From Nonlabens ulvanivorans (GTDB lineage Bacteria > Bacteroidota > Bacteroidia > Flavobacteriales > Flavobacteriaceae), in assembly GCF_000755285.1 (NCBI RefSeq), contig NZ_BBMK01000002.1:310001-374000 (forward strand): a stretch of 64,000 nucleotides of DNA, read 5' to 3'. The translations under genes were made by a program, and so were the position numbers. Every line of letters starts with the position of its first letter. Position 1 is the first letter of the stretch. This document shows, piece after piece, positions 28,747 through 38,935 of this stretch. The notes beneath the pieces were generated by a model. It saw only the letters and a list, made by a program, of their open reading frames with translations, was not told the DNA's origin and made no database searches.

Positions 28747-29717
28747 TTACCATTTATAAAGTGACGTTGCCCAGGTCCATCCAGCGCCTACGGCTGCAAA
28801 TAAGACCATGTCTCCATCTTTTAGTTTTCCCTTTGAAACGGTTTCATGAAGCATGATAGGTATAGTACCTCCAGAGGTATTTGCATAACGATCCATATTA
28901 GTCATTACTTTTTCCCATGGTAAGGAAACACGTTTTGCAACTTCTTCAAGGATGCGCACACTAGGTTGATGTGGTATGAGAAAATCAATATCATCTATGT
29001 GAGTATTGTTTCTTTGAAGCAATTTTTCAATAGATTCTGGAACAACTTTTATCGCGGTTTGAAAAACGGCCGGACCATCCATTTGAAAATATTGAAGCCC
29101 TTTCTCTAAGGTTTCTGGGGGGGTAGTAGGAGTGAGAGAACCACCAGCAGGTATATTCCAGCAATCCTTACCACGACCATCGGTATGTAATAAAAAATCT
29201 ATAAATCCTTTATCCTCATTAGTATGAGAGATTACCATGCACCAGCACCATCACCAAAAATACAGCGTCTCTACGATTCCAATCTGTGATATTTGAAAAA
29301 GTATCTGCTCCTATAACAAGCACATTTTTATACATTCCAGATTTAATGTACTGCACTGCAGTGGTAGTAGCAAACAAGGCACCTGAACAAACTGCAGATA
29401 TATCAAAGGCTACAGCATTAAACGCTTCTATTTTTTCTTGTACAAAACAGGCACAAGATGGAGCAAGCTTATCTGGTGTTGCGGTGGCAAGAATGATTAA
29501 ATCGATATCTTGAGGAGTGAGACCAGCATTTTTAATAGCTTCCTTACCAGCCATGGCAGCGAGGTCGCTTGTAGTTTCACCTGTGGAGATGCGCCTTTCT
29601 TTTATTCCTAAGTTTTTTGTATCCAGGCATCATTAGATCCTACAGATTCAAAAAGTCATTTTTTACGATGTTTTCTGGAGCATAGGATCCAGTTCCTTTA
29701 ATATATGCGTTATTCAT
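28747..29717 (-). pseudogene. fabH: 3-oxoacyl-ACP synthase III with several frameshifts
   Basis: The full FabH pattern can be read in pieces: MNNAYIKGTGSYAPENIVKN from 29717, then KERRISTGETTSDLAAMAGKEAI, active-site Cys in AVCSGALFATT, His in LIPHQPSVRI and Asn in YANTSGGT. At least four one-base gaps are needed: a T run near 29658, an A run near 29618, and two near 29228-29265. A C7 run (29117-29123) adds a Pro codon. Its start position, triad and length are otherwise normal. This is either a decayed paralogue or the worst case of the assembly indels seen across the window. It would start elongation by condensing acyl-CoA with malonyl-ACP. Confidence 0.8.
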
Positions 29718-30915: not shown

Positions 30916-31048
30916 TTTTTTTAATAAAGATAGTATGAATGTGGTGGATGTTCATAGGCATACAAAAAGCTTTAATGACGATTTAACAAAATTATGTTAG
31001 ATTTATATCGAATTATGAATTTTTAACCCCAATTAATTTTAGAGTATT

Positions 31049-31374
31049 ATGGCAGAAAACACAATCCCATTAGAACTAGCGCAACAATGGCGCAGCAACT
31101 GGAAAGCATCTGGTAAAGCTGGATGCAAGCAAACGGTTTACAAGGCTTTCTAGTCCCAGGTAGTGATCTATCTCAGGTCACAGGAGAAAACGGTGTAGAT
31201 TGTAGAATTTACTTAGGACTGACAGAAGAAGGTGCCGGTGGTGTGGCAAAGGTAATGTTAGTGGCTGTAGGGAGCGATGGTAAAGACTTAATCGATGCAG
31301 AAAATGGATATTATATCTATGATAATTCTAGCAGTATTCCACCTAATGGAGATCCATCAAGTCCTTTAAATTAG
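31049..31374 (+). CDS. Conserved hypothetical protein heading a sensory operon (one frameshift)
   Basis: From ATG 31049 the frame reads MAENTIPLELAQQWRSNWKA and is lost near 31113; adding one A to AAA restores KSWMQANGLQGFLVPGSDLSQVTGE...DCRIYLGLTEEGAGGVAKVMLVAVGSDGKDLIDAENGYYIYD. About 108 residues, no TM or signal peptide. I recall similar small proteins in Bacteroidota but no function. It is 9 bp upstream of the first membrane protein of the kinase operon. Confidence 0.7.
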
Positions 31375-31383
31375 ATTTAAACA

Positions 31384-32058
31384 TTGTCTTTTTCAGATTT
31401 TATTACTGATTTTTATTATTTACTATTGATACTGACTACGATTGTGTATTCAGTATCAATTGTTTATGGAGCTAGAAAGTTTTTACCCATTACCATTTGT
31501 CTAATAATAGGTTGTCTATGTGAATTTTTCACATTTTTAATAGGTGAGGATTACTTATTAATACTAGGAGAAAAAAATAACGCGATTGTTGGTCATGTTT
31601 ATAAATGGACTTCTTTCTTAACTTTTGGGTTCTTTTTATACAGTGTTCAAAAAAGTAAGGCAACAAAAAGGTTTTTTATTTCCTTATTTTCCATTTGTAC
31701 GGTAATAGGTATTCTTTCTCAATCAAGATTAAAACATTATTTGTTAGAAAATGATCCATGGTTAGCTTTCTCTTTAATGTCAGCTATCATCATAGCATCG
31801 ATGGTTTATTTTATTCAATTGTTAAGAGCTACTGACGGATATCCTTATATCACAACAGGGATTTTTTTAGTGTCGGGTAGTTTTTTAATATCAAGTGCAG
31901 TGAACGGTACTTATGTTGATGTTGATCTTGAAGTCTGGTATTTTAGAGAATCCATTAATAGAATAGTTTTGATCATTATGTATGCTATGTTTTTATTAGG
32001 AGCATATTTGTTTTTTAAAGAAGAAGATAGTATTAAACTGCAACGCATACAGCGGTAA
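31384..32058 (+). CDS. Multi-TM putative sensor membrane protein, paralogue 1
   Basis: 224 residues with six to seven TM segments. TTG at 31384 is the likely start. The segment YFIQLLRATDGYPYITTGIFLVSGSFLIS closely parallels YFIELLKNKKGYPFINIGLFLILGNTLIF in the next gene, and both have a GE-(D/K)-x-LL/GEK motif after TM2, so the two genes are paralogues. Position before a histidine kinase whose own sensor part is a single TM suggests a sensing role, like a 7TM receptor split from its kinase. Confidence 0.75.
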   Translation: MSFSDFITDFYYLLLILTTIVYSVSIVYGARKFLPITICLIIGCLCEFFTFLIGEDYLLILGEKNNAIVGHVYKWTSFLTFGFFLYSVQKSKATKRFFISLFSICTVIGILSQSRLKHYLLENDPWLAFSLMSAIIIASMVYFIQLLRATDGYPYITTGIFLVSGSFLISSAVNGTYVDVDLEVWYFRESINRIVLIIMYAMFLLGAYLFFKEEDSIKLQRIQR

Positions 32059-32072
32059 TCTCTAATGAGCAG

Positions 32073-32738
32073 ATGGAAACAATTTTTGATAATCTTACCG
32101 TAGTCTATTTTAGCTTGTTGATTTTCGATTTTGTTTGTTATTCCATAGCTGTTATAATAGGTAAAAATGATTTCAAGCCTATCTTTTTATACCTAATATC
32201 TGGTGTTTTTACAGAGGTCATGAGTAAAATGATCACTAGGGATTATTTTTTAGTTTTTGGTGAGAAGACTAATGCACCGTTCTTTTTTTTGTTCTCTATC
32301 CTACAGTTTCTATTCTTATCCTATTTTTTTAAAAAGGTCATTACGTGTTCCATATTTAAAAAATATTTTAAATATTTAGTGCTAGCTGTTTTGATTATAG
32401 GACTAGTTCCCTATGTATTTAATCCATCGTGGTTATTACATTTTTCTGTATGGTTACCTTTTATGACGATTCCGTTGTTACTGTTTTTTAGTACCTATTA
32501 CTTTATTGAACTATTAAAAAATAAAAAGGGATATCCTTTTATTAATATTGGCCTATTTTTAATCCTAGGAAATACCTTAATTTTTTTAATGACCATTCAG
32601 TTTTATGAAGGAGTCTCTTCTTATGTTAGAGACTTTTTAAGAACTCTTCATATATTTCCATTAATTGTGTTACATCTATTATTCATCTACGAATGCTTGT
32701 TATACTTCAAATCTCAAATACGTCGATCAACTATATAG
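32073..32738 (+). CDS. Multi-TM putative sensor membrane protein, paralogue 2
   Basis: 221 residues with about seven hydrophobic segments (VVYFSLLIFDFVCYSIAVII ... IFPLIVLHLLFIYECLLYF). It is related to the preceding gene (shared pattern around residues 145-175) and begins 14 bp after it. Its 3' end overlaps the longest form of the kinase gene by 46 bp, so translation of the two may be coupled. Proposed partner of the kinase; ligand unknown. Confidence 0.75.
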   Translation: METIFDNLTVVYFSLLIFDFVCYSIAVIIGKNDFKPIFLYLISGVFTEVMSKMITRDYFLVFGEKTNAPFFFLFSILQFLFLSYFFKKVITCSIFKKYFKYLVLAVLIIGLVPYVFNPSWLLHFSVWLPFMTIPLLLFFSTYYFIELLKNKKGYPFINIGLFLILGNTLIFLMTIQFYEGVSSYVRDFLRTLHIFPLIVLHLLFIYECLLYFKSQIRRSTI

Positions 32739-33484
32739 CTATAGGATTGATGATTTTTATTATTCTATTTTCTATAGGTATGGTTGTTTTTTTCCTGCTT
32801 TCGCGGAAGCGTATCACAGAAGCTGATCTGGAAGTAAGGGACACTCAAATTAAAGCACAAAAAGATGTCATGTCTGCTACACTGGTAACTCAAGAAAAAG
32901 AAAGACAACGCATAGCCAGAGATTTACACGATGAAATCAGTGCAAAACTAAATGTGATTGCGATGAATACTAACATGCTTAAGGAAGAATCTTTATCTCT
33001 TGAAGAGCGTGAAATATTGATTTCACGTATTGAAACAGCAACAGGTAAAACATTAGAAAACGCACGTAAAATAGCTCATAACCTTTTGCCTCCTGTACTT
33101 GAGAAATTTGGTTTATGTGCAGCTCTTACCGAAGTTGTTAAGAGCATTAACGGCAATAAAATTGATATTCATTTCTCTTGTGACTGGAATGAAGAGCAAT
33201 TAGATCCTGATTCTCAATTACATGTATATCGTGTCATACAAGAGTTACTCAATAATACCATAAAATATGCACAGTCAGATAAAGTATCCATAATACTTCA
33301 AGAAGATGATCATTATCGATTAATTAGCTATAGTGATAATGGGATAGGCTTTCAAGATAATGCTCAAATAGGTCTAGGAACAAGTAATATAAGCAGTAGA
33401 GTAGACCTATTAAATGGAACCCATAACCTAGAAACTAGTGATGGTAATGGTGTTGTATATACTTTTAAATTCCCAAAAACTTAA
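32693..33484 (+). CDS. HisKA_3-type sensor histidine kinase
   Basis: 263 residues. One TM helix (~residues 14-37), a short coiled linker, the dimerisation/phosphoacceptor box EKERQRIARDLHDEISAKLNV with His79, and a HATPase_c domain with ELLNNTIKYAQ and DNGIGF...GLGTSNISSRV. The first start overlaps the upstream gene by 46 bp; ATG at 32750 is an alternative just after the upstream stop. A degenerate palindrome (32797-32811) encodes LSRKR after the TM. Cognate regulator is the next gene, 6 bp away. Confidence 0.9.
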   Translation: MLVILQISNTSINYIAIGLMIFIILFSIGMVVFFLLSRKRITEADLEVRDTQIKAQKDVMSATLVTQEKERQRIARDLHDEISAKLNVIAMNTNMLKEESLSLEEREILISRIETATGKTLENARKIAHNLLPPVLEKFGLCAALTEVVKSINGNKIDIHFSCDWNEEQLDPDSQLHVYRVIQELLNNTIKYAQSDKVSIILQEDDHYRLISYSDNGIGFQDNAQIGLGTSNISSRVDLLNGTHNLETSDGNGVVYTFKFPKT

Positions 33485-33490
33485 ACCAAT

Positions 33491-34147
33491 ATGATTAACA
33501 TCGCCCTAGCAGATGATGAGAGTTTATTTCTAGATACCTTAAGTTTTATGTTGCAAAGAATTCCAGATTTTAATGTGGTTTTTACAGCAACAAATGGACA
33601 GGATCTTGTGGATCAACTTTCTACTCAAACACCTTTACCTGATGTGGTAGTTACCGATCTTAAAATGCCAGAATTAAATGGAGTAGAAGCTACTAAAAAG
33701 ATCAAAGAACTTTTTCCAGAATTAAGTGTTGTCGCATTAAGCAGTTATAACACCGATGTCTTTATTTCTAATATGCTAGGTGTAGGAGCCGCATCATATT
33801 TAGTAAAAAACACCACGCCTGCGCAAGTAGAGCTTACTATTAGAGAAGTAGCGGCAAAGGGATTTTATTATGATAAAAATGTTTTACGCATTTTACAGGA
33901 TAATTCACAAGATGGAAATTATAAGCGCAGCACACTAGACCATAACTTGCTATCGCCTCGAGAGTTAGATGTGTTACAGTTAATTTGTGAGCAATTTACA
34001 ACCACTGAAATTGCAGAGCAACTTTGTGTTTCTAAACGTACGGTTGATGGACATCGCAATAATTTGTTGATTAAGACAAAAATGAGAAACGTCGCTGGAC
34101 TTGTAGCTTATGCGATTCAAAACGCCATTATCACAGTCGAAATTTGA
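33491..34147 (+). CDS. NarL/LuxR-type response regulator
   Basis: 218 residues. Receiver domain with acidic pocket LADDES, phosphorylation site in VVVTDLKMPELNG (Asp ~57), switch Ser in VALSSY and Lys in SYLVKN. C-terminal LuxR helix-turn-helix: LSPRELDVLQLICEQFTTTEIAEQLCVSKRTVDGHRNNLL. Last gene of the 31049-34147 operon and directly upstream of the tandem RNA array, whose first and third units carry an identical NarL-heptamer-like site; regulation of the array by this protein is my inference. Confidence 0.93.
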   Translation: MINIALADDESLFLDTLSFMLQRIPDFNVVFTATNGQDLVDQLSTQTPLPDVVVTDLKMPELNGVEATKKIKELFPELSVVALSSYNTDVFISNMLGVGAASYLVKNTTPAQVELTIREVAAKGFYYDKNVLRILQDNSQDGNYKRSTLDHNLLSPRELDVLQLICEQFTTTEIAEQLCVSKRTVDGHRNNLLIKTKMRNVAGLVAYAIQNAIITVEI

Positions 34148-34163
34148 CTTTCTATCAAAAAAC

Positions 34164-34209
34164 AGGTATTTATACCTATTGTGTACACCTTTTAAGCTGT
34201 CTAAATTTG
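34164..34209 (+). promoter_or_regulatory. Operator plus promoter of array unit 1
   Basis: Inverted repeat AGGTATTTATACCT (34164-34177), TTG at 34179-34181, then TAAATTTG (34202-34209). The distance from operator end to the -7 element is 25 bp, identical to that in unit 3, which is the placement of a class II activator site. TACCTAT fits the NarL heptamer TACYYMT. Confidence 0.6.
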
Positions 34210-34213
34210 AACA

Positions 34214-34370
34214 AGTAAAATAAGTAAATAAGAGAAGTTGAAGACTCTTTTTGATTTTGTAGGGGGGGAAACCAAGAAGATATCTCAACTTTGAACACTA
34301 AAATAAATTTTGACGCATCAAAAATTTATTTTTAGAAAAATGTAAATGAGGCTTAGGCCTCATTTACTAT
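34214..34370 (+). ncRNA. Candidate small RNA, array unit 1
   Basis: Begins just after the TAAATTTG element. Stem AAGTTGA (34235-34241) with TCAACTT (34285-34291) encloses the shared core TTTTGTA-G7-AAACC (34256-34273). It ends in the rho-independent hairpin GTAAATGAGGC-TTAG-GCCTCATTTAC (34342-34367). No coding capacity. RNA status is inferred from promoter, stem, core and terminator recurring in four tandem units. Confidence 0.6.
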
Positions 34371-34400
34371 TTAATGACCTTAATAAGTATTGATTTTCAG

Positions 34401-34431
34401 TTTGTTAATCGATATAAATATTGTATATTTA
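34401..34431 (+). promoter_or_regulatory. Promoter of array unit 2
   Basis: TTTG (34401-34404), exactly 19 bp, TATATTTA (34424-34431): near-consensus Bacteroidota promoter. Upstream AATAAGTATTG (34382-34392) recurs before unit 4 (34834-34844). Confidence 0.6.
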
Positions 34432-34433
34432 AG

Positions 34434-34580
34434 TAAGTAGTTTTAACCAGGTGATTTTCTTGTTTTTGTAGGGGGAAACCGAGAGACTCTTCTGATTCTG
34501 TTTGAAAACTACTTATTTAACCTTCCAGAATCATATTCTAAGGCAATGAAAGTGAGGCTTCGGCCTCATTTTCTATTTCG
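34434..34580 (+). ncRNA. Candidate small RNA, array unit 2
   Basis: An 11-bp stem TAAGTAGTTTT (34434-34444) / AAAACTACTTA (34505-34515) starts at the predicted transcription start and encloses TTTTTGTA-G5-AAACC (34463-34480). Terminator hairpin with a TTCG tetraloop, arms GAAAGTGAGGC/GCCTCATTTTC (34548-34573). Confidence 0.6.
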
Positions 34581-34605
34581 CACTATTTGTTCAATATACA
34601 AAAAC

Positions 34606-34651
34606 AGGTATTTATACCTATTTCATGAACGATGAGGTATGCATAACTTTG
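34606..34651 (+). promoter_or_regulatory. Operator plus promoter of array unit 3
   Basis: A second copy of AGGTATTTATACCT (34606-34619), then TTTC (34621-34624) and TAACTTTG (34644-34651). The 20-base aacaggtatttatacctatt is identical to that of unit 1, with the same 25-bp distance to the -7 element. Confidence 0.6.
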
Positions 34652-34654
34652 TAT

Positions 34655-34800
34655 TGTAATTAAGCTAGAGTTCTTCTTTTATTCAGTTTTGTAGGGGAAA
34701 AGGTTTATGAGTTGAACTTGAAATTACACACTCTGTATACAGAGTATTTAAAGGGGGGGAAAGGAAATGGGGCTAGCGCCTCATTTCTGCTTTCCTTTTT
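34655..34800 (+). ncRNA. Candidate small RNA, array unit 3
   Basis: Stem GTAATTAAG (34656-34664) with CTT-GA-AATTAC (34717-34727) encloses GTTTTGTA-G4-AAAA (34687-34701). A perfect palindrome ACTCTGTATACAGAGT (34730-34745) and a G7 run (34753-34759) precede the terminator GAAATGGGGC-TAGC-GCCTCATTTC (34764-34787), which has a T-rich tail. Confidence 0.55.
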
Positions 34801-34833
34801 TAAAACAGAAATCGTATTTGAATTGAGTTTTTT

Positions 34834-34982
34834 AATAAGTATTGCTAATCGTTTTGATGGTTAAGGGTCGTCTAGTTTTCGGGGGGAAAATGTATCAATC
34901 CATCAATTTAAGGTAACCATATTGCCTGCGTTAGTGACACATTAACTGAAAGAATGGGACTTAGGTCCCATTCTTTATATAA
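34834..34982 (+). ncRNA. Candidate small RNA, array unit 4
   Basis: Shares AATAAGTATTG with unit 2. Stem TTGATGG (34854-34860) / CCATCAA (34900-34906) encloses GTTTTC-G6-AAAA (34875-34890). Terminator AAAGAATGGGAC-TTAG-GTCCCATTCTTT (34949-34976), whose GGGAC/GTCCC arms differ from the GAGGC/GCCTC of units 1-2 in a compensatory way. A convincing -7 element was not found, so this unit may be degenerate. Confidence 0.5.
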
Positions 34983-35044
34983 CTATAGATTAGATACATA
35001 ACACTTCTATTAAATTTCCTACTTTTAAACCATAAACCTATAAT

Positions 35045-36583
35045 ATGCTCACAAAAGTCTATGGAAGTGCCGTTTTTGGTGTGGAAGCAACAACCATTAC
35101 GGTAGAAGTTAATAGTGTAAAAGGAATAGGATATCACCTTGTCGGGTTACCAGATAAAGCAATCAGCGAGAGTTCCTATCGTATCGCAGCAGCGTTATCT
35201 AATGTAGGATACAAGCTGCCAGGTAAAAAAATTACCATTAACATGGCTCCAGCAGACTTGCGTAAAGAAGGTAGTGCCTATGATTTAACACTAGCAATCG
35301 GTATACTTATATCTTCTGGTCAAATTAAGGCAGATGAGGTGGATCAATACCTAATTATGGGAGAACTGTCTTTAGACGGTAGCTTACAACCTATTAAAGG
35401 CGCTTTACCCATCGCCATAAAAGCTAGAGAAGAAAAATATAAAGGATTTATACTGCCTGCACAAAATGCTCGCGAGGCAGCTATTGTTGATGGACTAGAG
35501 GTTTATGGCGTTGATAATATCTCACAAGTAATAGATTTTTTTAATGAAGAAAAGCCACTAGAGCCTACGATAGTGGATACTAGAGATGAGTTTTTTCAAG
35601 CCCTAGAACATCCAGAATTTGATTTTGCAGATGTTAAAGGGCAAGAGTCCATTAAAAGATGTATGGAAATAGCAGCTGCTGGTGGACATAACATTATTCT
35701 TATAGGTCCGCCAGGTTCTGGTAAAACAATGCTTGCTAAAAGACTACCATCTATATTACCACCCATGACATTGCATGAGGCATTAGAAACAACCAAAATT
35801 CATAGCGTCGCTGGTCGTACTCAAGAAAAAGCAGGTTTGATGGCGCAACGACCTTTCCGTAGTCCACACCATACAATATCAGATGTGGCATTAGTAGGTG
35901 GTGGTGCTTATCCACAACCTGGTGAGATATCAATGTCTCACAATGGCGTACTTTTCTTAGATGAGTTACCAGAATTTAAACGAACTGTGCTCGAGGTGAT
36001 GCGACAACCTCTAGAAGATCGTGAGGTCACTATTTCTCGAGCAAAGTTTACGGTGACCTATCCATCTAGTTTTATGCTAGTAGCAAGTATGAATCCTAGT
36101 CCTGGCGGATATTTCAATGATCCAGACGCGCCTGTACAAAGCAGTCCGGCAGAAATGCAACGATACCTTAGTAAGGTATCTGGTCCACTACTAGATCGCA
36201 TCGATATTCATATAGAGGTTACACCAGTCCCATTTGAGAAACTTACAGAAGAACGGTTGGCAGAAAAATCCAATGTGATCAGAAAGCGTGTCACTGCCGC
36301 TAGAGATATTCAGACAGACCGCTTTCGCGAAAGCGAGAAAACACATTATAATGCTCAAATGAGTGTCAAGGACATTAGAAAATATTGTGTGTTAGATGAT
36401 AGTAGTAAAGAATTGCTTAAAAGTGCTATGGAACGATTAAACCTTAGTGCTAGAGCCTATGATCGGATTTTAAAAGTTTCAAGAACAATTGCAGATCTAG
36501 AAGGCTCTATAGATATCACGGGCACACATATTGCAGAAGCTATACAATACCGCAGCCTGGATAGAGATGGCTGGCTAGGATAA
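35045..36583 (+). CDS. comM: YifB/ComM family Mg-chelatase-like AAA+ ATPase
   Basis: 512 residues, normal length. N-terminal ChlI domain (GVEATTITVEVNSVKGIGYHLVGLPDKAISES), AAA+ core with Walker A GPPGSGKTMLAKRLPS, Walker B VLFLDELPEF, sensor SMNPSPGG and C-terminal Mg_chelatase_C (LSARAYDRILKVSRTIADLEGS). ComM is a hexameric helicase for branch migration during natural transformation. The iterated palindrome at 36320-36335 encodes RFRES. It follows the RNA array. Confidence 0.95.
   Translation: MLTKVYGSAVFGVEATTITVEVNSVKGIGYHLVGLPDKAISESSYRIAAALSNVGYKLPGKKITINMAPADLRKEGSAYDLTLAIGILISSGQIKADEVDQYLIMGELSLDGSLQPIKGALPIAIKAREEKYKGFILPAQNAREAAIVDGLEVYGVDNISQVIDFFNEEKPLEPTIVDTRDEFFQALEHPEFDFADVKGQESIKRCMEIAAAGGHNIILIGPPGSGKTMLAKRLPSILPPMTLHEALETTKIHSVAGRTQEKAGLMAQRPFRSPHHTISDVALVGGGAYPQPGEISMSHNGVLFLDELPEFKRTVLEVMRQPLEDREVTISRAKFTVTYPSSFMLVASMNPSPGGYFNDPDAPVQSSPAEMQRYLSKVSGPLLDRIDIHIEVTPVPFEKLTEERLAEKSNVIRKRVTAARDIQTDRFRESEKTHYNAQMSVKDIRKYCVLDDSSKELLKSAMERLNLSARAYDRILKVSRTIADLEGSIDITGTHIAEAIQYRSLDRDGWLG
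36320..36335. repeat. Highly iterated palindrome, in comM
   Basis: Perfect CGCTTTCGCGAAAGCG read as RFRES. Confidence 0.9.
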
Positions 36584-37051: not shown

Positions 37052-38935
37052 TTGAAAAATTTTGAAGTCTTAGGACTCTCACAGCCGTTATTAGACGGCC
37101 TCGCTGACATGGGTTTTGAAAACCAACAGAGATTCAGCAACAGTCTATTCCCCCCCTTTTATTAAAGCATGACGGAGACTTTATAGGTCTTGCTCAAACT
37201 GGTACGGGAAAAACTGCTGCTTTCGGTTTACCCTTATTGGATCTTATAGATGTTAATTCTCGTGAAGTACAAGCCCTTATTCTGGCACCTACTCGCGAAC
37301 TTGCTCAACAGATTTGTGGGCAAATGGAACAAATGTCTAAACACTTAGGTAAAGTGAATGTTGTTCCCGTTTTTGGTGGAGCAAATATTATGAATCAAAT
37401 TAGAGACATACGTCGTGGTGCACAAGTAATTGTGGCTACACCTGGTCGATTAATGGATTTAATGAAACGCCGTGAAGTAAAACTCGACGCTTTAAAGTAT
37501 ATGATACTTGATGAAGCTGACGAGATGCTTAACATGGGTTTTAAAGAAGATATTGATTTTATTCTCTCAAAGAGTGATACTGGTAGAAATATCTGGTTAT
37601 TCTCTGCTACAATGGCACGTGAAATTAAGCGTATTGTAGATACTTATATGGTGCAACCTGAAGAGGTGCGTATCAATAGAGAAAATATTGTAAATACAAA
37701 TATCGAACACCAATCGATACAGTTAAAAGCATCTGACAAGATAGAGGCTTTACGCCGTTTCTTAGATTATGATCAAGATATGTTTGGTGTTGTATTTTGT
37801 CGTACAAAACGTGATACTCAAAATGTAGCAGATCAGTTGAACAACAACGGTTATGCTACTGAAGCCTTACATGGTGATATGTCACAAGCACAGCGTGATG
37901 CTGCAATGAAACGTTTCCGTAATAAGAACTTAAAGTTACTTATAGCAACAGATGTTGCTGCACGTGGTATTGATGTAGATGATATTACTCACGTTATACA
38001 CTTTGCGTTACCAGATGATCCTGAGTTCTATACGCACCGTTCTGGTCGTACGGCTCGAGCTGGTAAGAAAGGAGTTTCTATAGCTTTAATAACTCGTGGT
38101 GATAATCGCAAGTTAAAATTTATCGCTAGTAAATTAGGGATTGAATTCACACAAGGAGAAGTTCCTGCATTAGAGGCTATTACTCAAAAACGTATTTCTC
38201 GATGGTCAGAAAATATGATCAAACAAGATATCAATGAGAAGATAGATGAGAAGTTACTAACTGAGGTTCAAGAAAGCTTTGCTGAGGTAACTAAGGAAGA
38301 ATTAATCGCCAAGTTGTTGACTAAAGAATACAACTCTATTTATAAACGTAATTCTATATCTGATCTAAATGACCGTTCTAAAAGTCGTGATAGAGATGAT
38401 AGTCCAAGACGTGAGCGCGGTAAACGCACTAGTGTGGTACTGAAGAAGGAATGAAGACTTACTTTATCAATTTAGGTCTTAAGGATGATATCAATAAAGG
38501 TGCATTACTAGGATATGTATGTGATACCACAGGTATTTCTGGTGCTCAGATAGGTCGTATCGTTATGGATAAGACTCATTCTTATATGGATGTTGCAGAA
38601 GATGTAGCGTCTCAAATCCTTACACTAGACGGTAAACAACGTAATGGTCATGACTTAAGAGTTAATGAACATAAAGGTGTCGTAAGCGAGCCAGCTCGAG
38701 AACGTGGTGGTCGTAGCGGTGGCGGATTTAAAGGTCGTCGTGATTCTGGCGGTGGCGGCGGATTTAAAGGTCGTCGTAGTAATGATTCTGGCGGCGGCGG
38801 TGGCTATAAAGGAAAACGTAGTGATTCTGATAGTAGTGACCGTGGTAATAGAAGTAGCGTCGTGGAAACGATTCTTCTTCAAGTGGAAATGATAGCAGTG
38901 GTAACCGTGGTGGCTTTAAAGGTCGTAAGTGGTAG
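37052..38935 (+). CDS. DEAD-box RNA helicase with DbpA-like RNA-binding domain (three frameshifts)
   Basis: Reads MKNFEVLGLSQPLLDGLADMGFENP from TTG 37052, then Q-motif, AQTGTGKT, PTRELAQQ, TPGRLMD, DEAD, SAT, and the C-domain ARGIDVDDITHVIHFALPDD and HRSGRTARAG. After a linker comes a DbpA-type RNA-binding domain (INKGALLGYVCDTTGISGAQIGRIVMDK) and an RGG/Gly-rich tail ending GGFKGRKW. One-base deletions near 37123, 38433 and 38858 split it; repairing each restores one ~627-codon protein. The C7 run at 37150-37156 adds a Pro codon (SIPPLL). Probable role: ribosome assembly or cold-adapted RNA remodelling. Confidence 0.9.

Follow-up and report, generated by a model that had tools for sequence, protein, structure and literature searches.

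Organization of the locus

The window, a 64-kb stretch of the Nonlabens ulvanivorans genome (genome G000), carries on its plus strand a signalling operon, an array of RNA-like units and a comM gene. The operon opens with a gene for a small protein of ~110 aa (31049..31374), which is frameshifted in this assembly and intact in relatives, and which matched no family in NCBIfam (searched with an intact relative) or Pfam (searched with the window fragment). Two genes follow (31384..32058 and 32073..32738), both of which we take from their sequences to encode membrane proteins; neither belongs to a Pfam or NCBIfam family, and L067 and L070 carry a similar gene at each of the two positions. A sensor histidine kinase (32693..33484; HisKA_3 and HATPase_c) adjoins, in the window and in L067 and L070, a NarL/LuxR-type response regulator (RR, 33491..34147), whose only domain matches are Response_reg, GerE and, weakly, HTH_23, and whose orthologs in seven other Nonlabens genomes share 65-97% identity. 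A comM/YifB family AAA ATPase (35045..36583) is the conserved neighbour on the far side of the array. The 5' leader of the operon (31010-31051), which contains CCCC, hardly varies among the four clade-1 genomes described below, and this constancy does not extend to N. xylanidelens. In N. ulvanivorans PLR (L067, 5547-8204), comM is open for only 289 codons, and a 585-aa recombinase-like ORF comes next; judging by the open reading frames, an element may have been inserted in comM.

Between the end of the RR gene (34147) and the start of comM (35045) lies a gap of 897 bp with four sibling RNA-like units, in agreement with the first-pass annotation, which had described about 890 bp lacking protein genes and containing four units. 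The longest plus-strand ORF within the gap is 50 aa with a TTG start, and minus-strand ORFs of 102 and 58 aa overlap the neighbouring genes. Short pieces of a small frame are common to three of four genomes at the unit 2 terminator and to four of four at the unit 4 loop, with differing lengths and ends, and the array is read as non-coding.

Unit 1 (34214..34368) is predicted to form a long G-loop hairpin, a middle hairpin and a terminator; unit 2 (34435..34574) a G-loop hairpin, a small hairpin and a terminator; and unit 3 (34655..34788) a G-loop hairpin, a second hairpin and a terminator, with a second G-run (34753-34759) beyond its core run. The 5' ends of these three are approximate. Unit 4 (34852..34976), whose promoter is uncertain, has a hairpin with the loop TTTTC-G-run-AAAA, a second hairpin and a terminator with the arms GGGAC/GTCCC. 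The predicted folds place the G-run in the apical loop of a long hairpin in units 1-3 and of a shorter one in unit 4, and in all units the G-loop hairpin is followed by a further hairpin and then by a tetraloop terminator. The repeats named previously were all located, with TTTTGTA-G-run-A cores at 34255, 34464 and 34687 and the TTTTC variant in unit 4, as were both pairs of terminator arms, GAGGC/GCCTC and GGGAC/GTCCC.

G-run lengths in the assembly

The G-runs of the array measure 7, 5, 4, 7 and 6 bases in the window, compared with 3-5 in its clade-1 relatives. Runs of exactly seven G or C number 16 in the 64-kb window and zero in 60 kb from three relatives; the window's runs include those at 2681, 6038, 6116, 10069, 18116, 24451, 29117, 34262, 34753 and 37150; the runs at 29117 and 37150 fall within long open frames of relatives. 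The nine-base complement of the clade-1 loop core, TTCCCCTAC, has a single site in G000 as opposed to 9, 7 and 13 in G016, G011 and G002, array sites included. The seven-G runs are thus probably a systematic assembly or base-calling artefact, and in units 1 and 3 a run of about G4 is to be assumed. Since the relatives carry the G-loop too, the finding of the array is unaffected. A helicase-like gene also differs from that of a relative by indels near 37122-37150.

Conservation within Nonlabens

Conservation at the same locus in related genomes had been proposed as a test of the family, and an array was indeed found between the RR gene and comM in related Nonlabens. The complete locus is present in seven genomes, with four units in clade 1 (G000, G016, N. 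ulvanivorans PLR or G011, and strain BBFL7 or G002) and two diverged units, a and b, in clade 2 (G001, G004 and N. xylanidelens, G006). A fragmented Nonlabens metagenome-assembled genome (G021) has the palindrome described below after the RR gene on one contig and a relative of unit 4 before comM on another. An RR ortholog (at least 65% identity) occurs in 8 of 23 Nonlabens genomes, the window's own included, and the small protein of the operon is found in exactly these eight. What G009 has at the locus is a carB-like gene, a remnant of the array, and comM; neither an RR ortholog (best identity 27%) nor the small protein was found in this genome, nor a kinase ORF at the locus.

Many Nonlabens genomes gave no array match with the models used. 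Outside the genus, G033 carries the small protein, one membrane protein, the kinase, the RR and comM together without an array, and because the same genes occur there without it, it is probable that the array originated within the Nonlabens lineage.

Predicted promoters and probable control by the response regulator

The flavobacterial sigma-A promoter box is TAnnTTTG at -12 to -5 (PMC9723704). The -7 box of unit 1, TAAATTTG (34202..34209), matches this consensus, and boxes were also located for unit 2 (TATATTTA, 34424..34431) and unit 3 (TAACTTTG, 34644..34651), in line with the promoters first annotated for units 1-3.

These boxes bear on the alternative that the units act in cis on comM, as leaders or attenuators arranged in tandem, each with its own terminator. 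Units lie directly upstream of comM in nine genomes, including G009 and the contig of G021, and the last terminator in the window is 68 bp from comM, as might be expected of leaders. However, units 1-3 have their own -7 boxes, and a separate promoter-like box, TACTTTTA (35020..35027), which may be the promoter of comM, stands downstream of the last terminator in all four clade-1 sequences. In addition, one unit in G017 lies away from comM, and G033 has comM after the RR with no array at all, making a leader function very improbable.

The palindrome AGGTATTTATACCT precedes unit 1 (34164..34177) and unit 3 (34606..34619) and is probably the binding site of the RR; unit 2 has none. A half-site scan of the seven complete loci gave 11 palindrome sites, all of them before units 1, 3 or a, and the spacing recurs in the other array genomes, at 24 nt before TAnnTTTG in clade 1 (8/8 sites) and 23 nt before TAnnTTTA in clade 2 (3/3). 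The form is AGGTATTTATACCT in clade 1 and GGGTATTTATAC[C/T]C in clade 2, where G001 has the outer base exchanged in both half-sites (GGGTAT..ATACCC), and G004 and G006 have GGGTAT..ATACTC, an incompletely symmetric form. In G021 it reads AGGTATATATACCT. The exact 12-mer GGTATWTATACC has only two sites in the genome of G002, which are its two array sites. The palindrome is not clearly enriched genome-wide, with 6, 6, 5 and 2 sites in G000, G016, G011 and G002 against 3, 5, 0 and 2 for reversed-pattern controls.

The palindrome, previously noted within a segment shared by units 1 and 3, is present at both, but it lies 24 nt rather than 25 from the -7 box. The alternating ABAB pattern described along with it survives in part. 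Its palindrome half (present before units 1 and 3, absent before 2 and 4) holds in four of four genomes, whereas the half that rests on units 2 and 4 is weak, since AATAAGTATTG, common to both units here, is missing from both in G016 and G002, and G011 has it in unit 2 alone.

In the remnant of G009, unit a has lost the palindrome and the terminator pairing and has a changed loop (CAGGGAGC). Loop and terminator are retained in unit b, which has no palindrome in related genomes. This is the pattern that would be predicted if unit a alone depended on the RR, although it is a single case in a single genome. The palindrome at fixed spacing, the co-occurrence of the RR and the small protein, and this instance of loss together give good support to control of units 1 and 3 by the RR, which we infer to be probable. 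The first-pass annotation had proposed a small RNA family perhaps switched on by the neighbouring regulator; conservation, stem covariation, the promoter-spaced palindrome and shared inheritance all favour it, but activation of all four units is not supported, as the palindrome precedes only units 1 and 3.

Folding and stem covariation

Compared with dinucleotide shuffles, the fold energies of units 1-4 have z-scores of -6.35, -5.02, -2.41 and -3.12, respectively. A terminator scan of both strands found 4 sites, against 0.6 +/- 0.9 in shuffles; under its strict T-tail rule, only units 1 and 3 were listed on the plus strand.

Covariation was assessed in alignments of only three or four sequences each. 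It is clear in clade-2 unit a, where 6 of 27 pairs are changed on both sides (2.4 in shuffles, with 1 of 500 shuffles as high) and 92.6% of cells are paired, compared with at most 54.3% in slid versions. It is moderate in unit 1 (3 of 48 pairs against 0.8, with 10 of 500 shuffles as high) and in unit 4 (3 of 28 against 1.2, with 39 of 500), and is at the level of shuffles in unit 2 (260 of 500 as high), where the structure string is off register in the inner helix, and in unit 3 (259 of 500). Taken together, the covariation is suggestive of the predicted stems. Clade-2 unit a has two G-loops per RNA, and its TTCAGGGGA is identical in all three species while the stems differ. The bases adjacent to the G-run vary from unit to unit.

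Searches beyond the array

A solitary unit was found in G017 (L103, 4567-4672, minus strand), between genes that we take from their ORFs to be peptidase-like and ctaA-like; neither an RR ortholog nor the small protein was found in this genome. The unit was matched by both search models (E 4.1e-5 with R2 and 3.9e-5 with R1) and has both loop types, combining the loop of clade 1 with a second hairpin that resembles the one in clade-2 unit a, thereby tying the two clades into one family. Elsewhere, G015 (L170, 1491-1527) has the TTTTGTAGGGGAAA loop on a terminator-like hairpin between LytTR-type regulator and CYTH-like genes, which may be coincidence.

Genus-level R1 matches up to E 1 were examined at loci outside the array units, excluding G006:C7 and antisense matches inside arrays. 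Three of these loci (L110, L113 and L114) are family members, and eight (L111, L112, L115, L121, L122, L124, L126 and L131) were dismissed as terminators. G014 contains one repeated sequence (L116, 613-734, and L125, 1501-1622) with a TTTTCGAGGGAAAA hairpin like the loop of unit 4 and no terminator, which R1 matched weakly (E 0.67).

The family-level searches covered 397 genomes drawn from a larger group under stricter filters, and R2 missed the window's own array there. R1 matched three genomes at E <= 0.01, namely at the own array and at two terminator-only places, and R2 matched four genomes, namely G006 and three with weak places in other genera. Of the latter, L220 and L221 are terminators without a G-loop (the G9 run of L221 lies outside the match), and L222 offers a single suitable hairpin and lacks a terminator. 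The exact TTTTGTAGGGGAAA core occurs at 22 places in 22 of the 397 genomes; among the 21 outside the own array, 17 are in open frames of at least 131 codons and none has a terminator within 140 nt. Under these strict filters, no convincing member outside the genus was found with R1, R2 or the exact core among the 397 genomes. In the own genome, the core with one mismatch gave four further places, all in frames of at least 144 codons and without a terminator.

It could be argued that the units are neutral or mobile repeats with no regulatory role, as the copies are tandem and diverged and the models found none in many Nonlabens genomes. Against this, R1 detected no additional copy elsewhere in the own genome at E values up to 1, and no DNA similar to the array was found in plasmid and phage collections. 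The covariation in three alignments and the fixed promoter spacing also speak against it, and we regard this explanation as the least probable of those weighed here. The array is instead very probably a regulated, multicopy family of trans-acting small RNAs, as far as can be judged from sequence.

Relation to known small RNA systems

No Rfam family matched the window at its gathering score. The best sub-threshold match in the array by E-value was BTnc060 (E 0.015), which scored 30.1 bits where the gathering score is 228.9, and Flavo-1, suggested earlier as a possible identity, did not appear in the array at E <= 10 and was rejected. Qrr RNAs and LuxO are a poor model too. That system combines multicopy small RNAs with an RR carrying a sigma-54 activator domain; here multicopy small RNAs and an RR are likewise combined, but the RR has Response_reg and GerE and no match to a sigma-54 activator domain. 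LhrC/LisRK and Rsm/GacA appear to be better analogues.

In Listeria, five sRNA copies, LhrC1-5, depend on the LisRK two-component system, and their short, redundant UCCC motif, in loops and a single-stranded stretch, meets a G-rich site in mRNA (PMC4132741). The resemblance lies in the several similar sRNA genes, with units 1-3 of the array each having a predicted promoter and terminator; the difference is that the LhrC motif is C-rich and the Nonlabens loop G-rich, and no relation was found through Rfam. In Pseudomonas, RsmX/Y/Z are driven by GacA, with an upstream palindrome, and carry repeated unpaired GGA motifs (PMC2375449). The Nonlabens units similarly have a G-run and then A in their predicted loops, giving repeated GGA in hairpin loops, and units 1, 3 and a have a palindrome conserved in site and spacing upstream, the putative RR site. 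The Nonlabens RR does match the UvrY/SirA/GacA model, but far below its cut-off (95.9 against 280 bits), and the Nonlabens core is mostly AGGGGA rather than ANGGA. CsrA (PF02599) was found in none of 36 relatives, in a search whose control was positive in 3 of 14 control genomes, the own assembly being 86.94% complete; a CsrA sponge in the strict sense was rejected on this ground.

Two further systems have been described. Five similar csRNAs in Streptococcus are under the one RR of CiaRH (PMC4507080), though this is another phylum and the Nonlabens array has no Rfam match. FopS, a paralogous multicopy sRNA family of Bacteroidota studied in Bacteroides, has a single-stranded 5' stretch with a seed and a terminator, and is deposited in Rfam (PMC11697453); no entry named FopS appeared at E <= 10 in the Rfam scan of the array, although it may be filed under another name. 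In the portions of the literature covered on Nonlabens small RNA, sibling sRNAs linked to two-component systems in Bacteroidetes, and G-rich loops in Flavobacteria, no description of the array was found.

Proposed mode of action

From domains and gene order, the small protein, the predicted membrane proteins and the histidine kinase would sense a signal, upon which the kinase would phosphorylate the NarL-type RR. Binding of the RR to the palindrome, which lies immediately before the -33 region in units 1 and 3 and in unit a of clade 2, would activate the sigma-A-type promoters of these units, as suggested by conservation, fixed spacing and the loss of the site in the genome that lacks the RR. 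Having no site, units 2 and 4 and, in clade 2, unit b may supply RNA independently of the RR. Each RNA would end at its own terminator, and its active site would be the G4-type loop UUUU-GUAGGG-GAAA or a variant, with the stem sequence free to change. The RNAs would act in trans, several copies acting together, with the loop contacting short C-rich stretches of mRNA. This would be a mirror image of LhrC, in which C-rich RNAs act on G-rich mRNAs. As a whole, the explanation of a self-contained signalling module with an RNA output seems likely to us.

The last step is less certain. Most studied small RNAs act by base pairing, and for this reason we lean towards pairing over the capture of a protein, with confidence a little short of even. 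The exact complement TTCCCCTAC occurs at 30 places in four genomes (the G000 count being unreliable owing to the G-run artefact), and no conserved sense site near a start was found among them in a frame test that used ATG starts only and left L213 of G002 unassigned. Two matches recur in three genomes, one in the T-arm of tRNA-Glu and the other antisense to an ORF. The nine-base complementarity of the tRNA-Glu T-arm to the clade-1 loop core is seen in three relatives (L201, L205 and L206, near 1500) and may be due to chance, because tRNA T-arms are C-rich. The C-run of the operon leader (31027-31030) was rejected as a target; it is kept in the four clade-1 genomes, N. xylanidelens lacks it ahead of the same gene, and pairing by eye stops at four bases.

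Alternatively, the repeated G-loops may capture an RNA-binding protein and release its mRNAs, in the manner of RsmX/Y/Z with another protein. A short, nearly fixed loop on variable stems, present in several copies per genome and twice in each unit a, would suit such a sponge, as would its recurrence on the solitary G017 unit and the G015 terminator hairpin, and the lack of a conserved mRNA complement to the exact 9-mer in four genomes. An RR with an upstream palindrome is, moreover, the arrangement described for GacA and the rsm genes (PMC2375449). Conversely, CsrA was found in none of the 36 relatives, any candidate loop-binding protein is still hypothetical, and the bases beside the G-run differ between units, so that we consider a protein sponge possible but unlikely. 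Slightly more doubtful is the notion that a Gac/Rsm-like circuit has arisen independently in Bacteroidota, in which a NarL-type two-component system would drive multicopy G-loop RNAs that capture a protein other than CsrA, the loop recurring on solitary RNAs in other Nonlabens.

The array appears to represent an sRNA-like family that is conserved in Nonlabens and linked to a regulator; the best reading is that of sibling small RNAs driven by a two-component system, a known kind. The regulator, its putative sites and the RNAs all lie within ~4 kb. The two diverged versions of the array allow comparison, and the relative that has no regulator provides a natural control. As bait, the G-loop could serve to find mRNA targets or a new RNA-binding protein.
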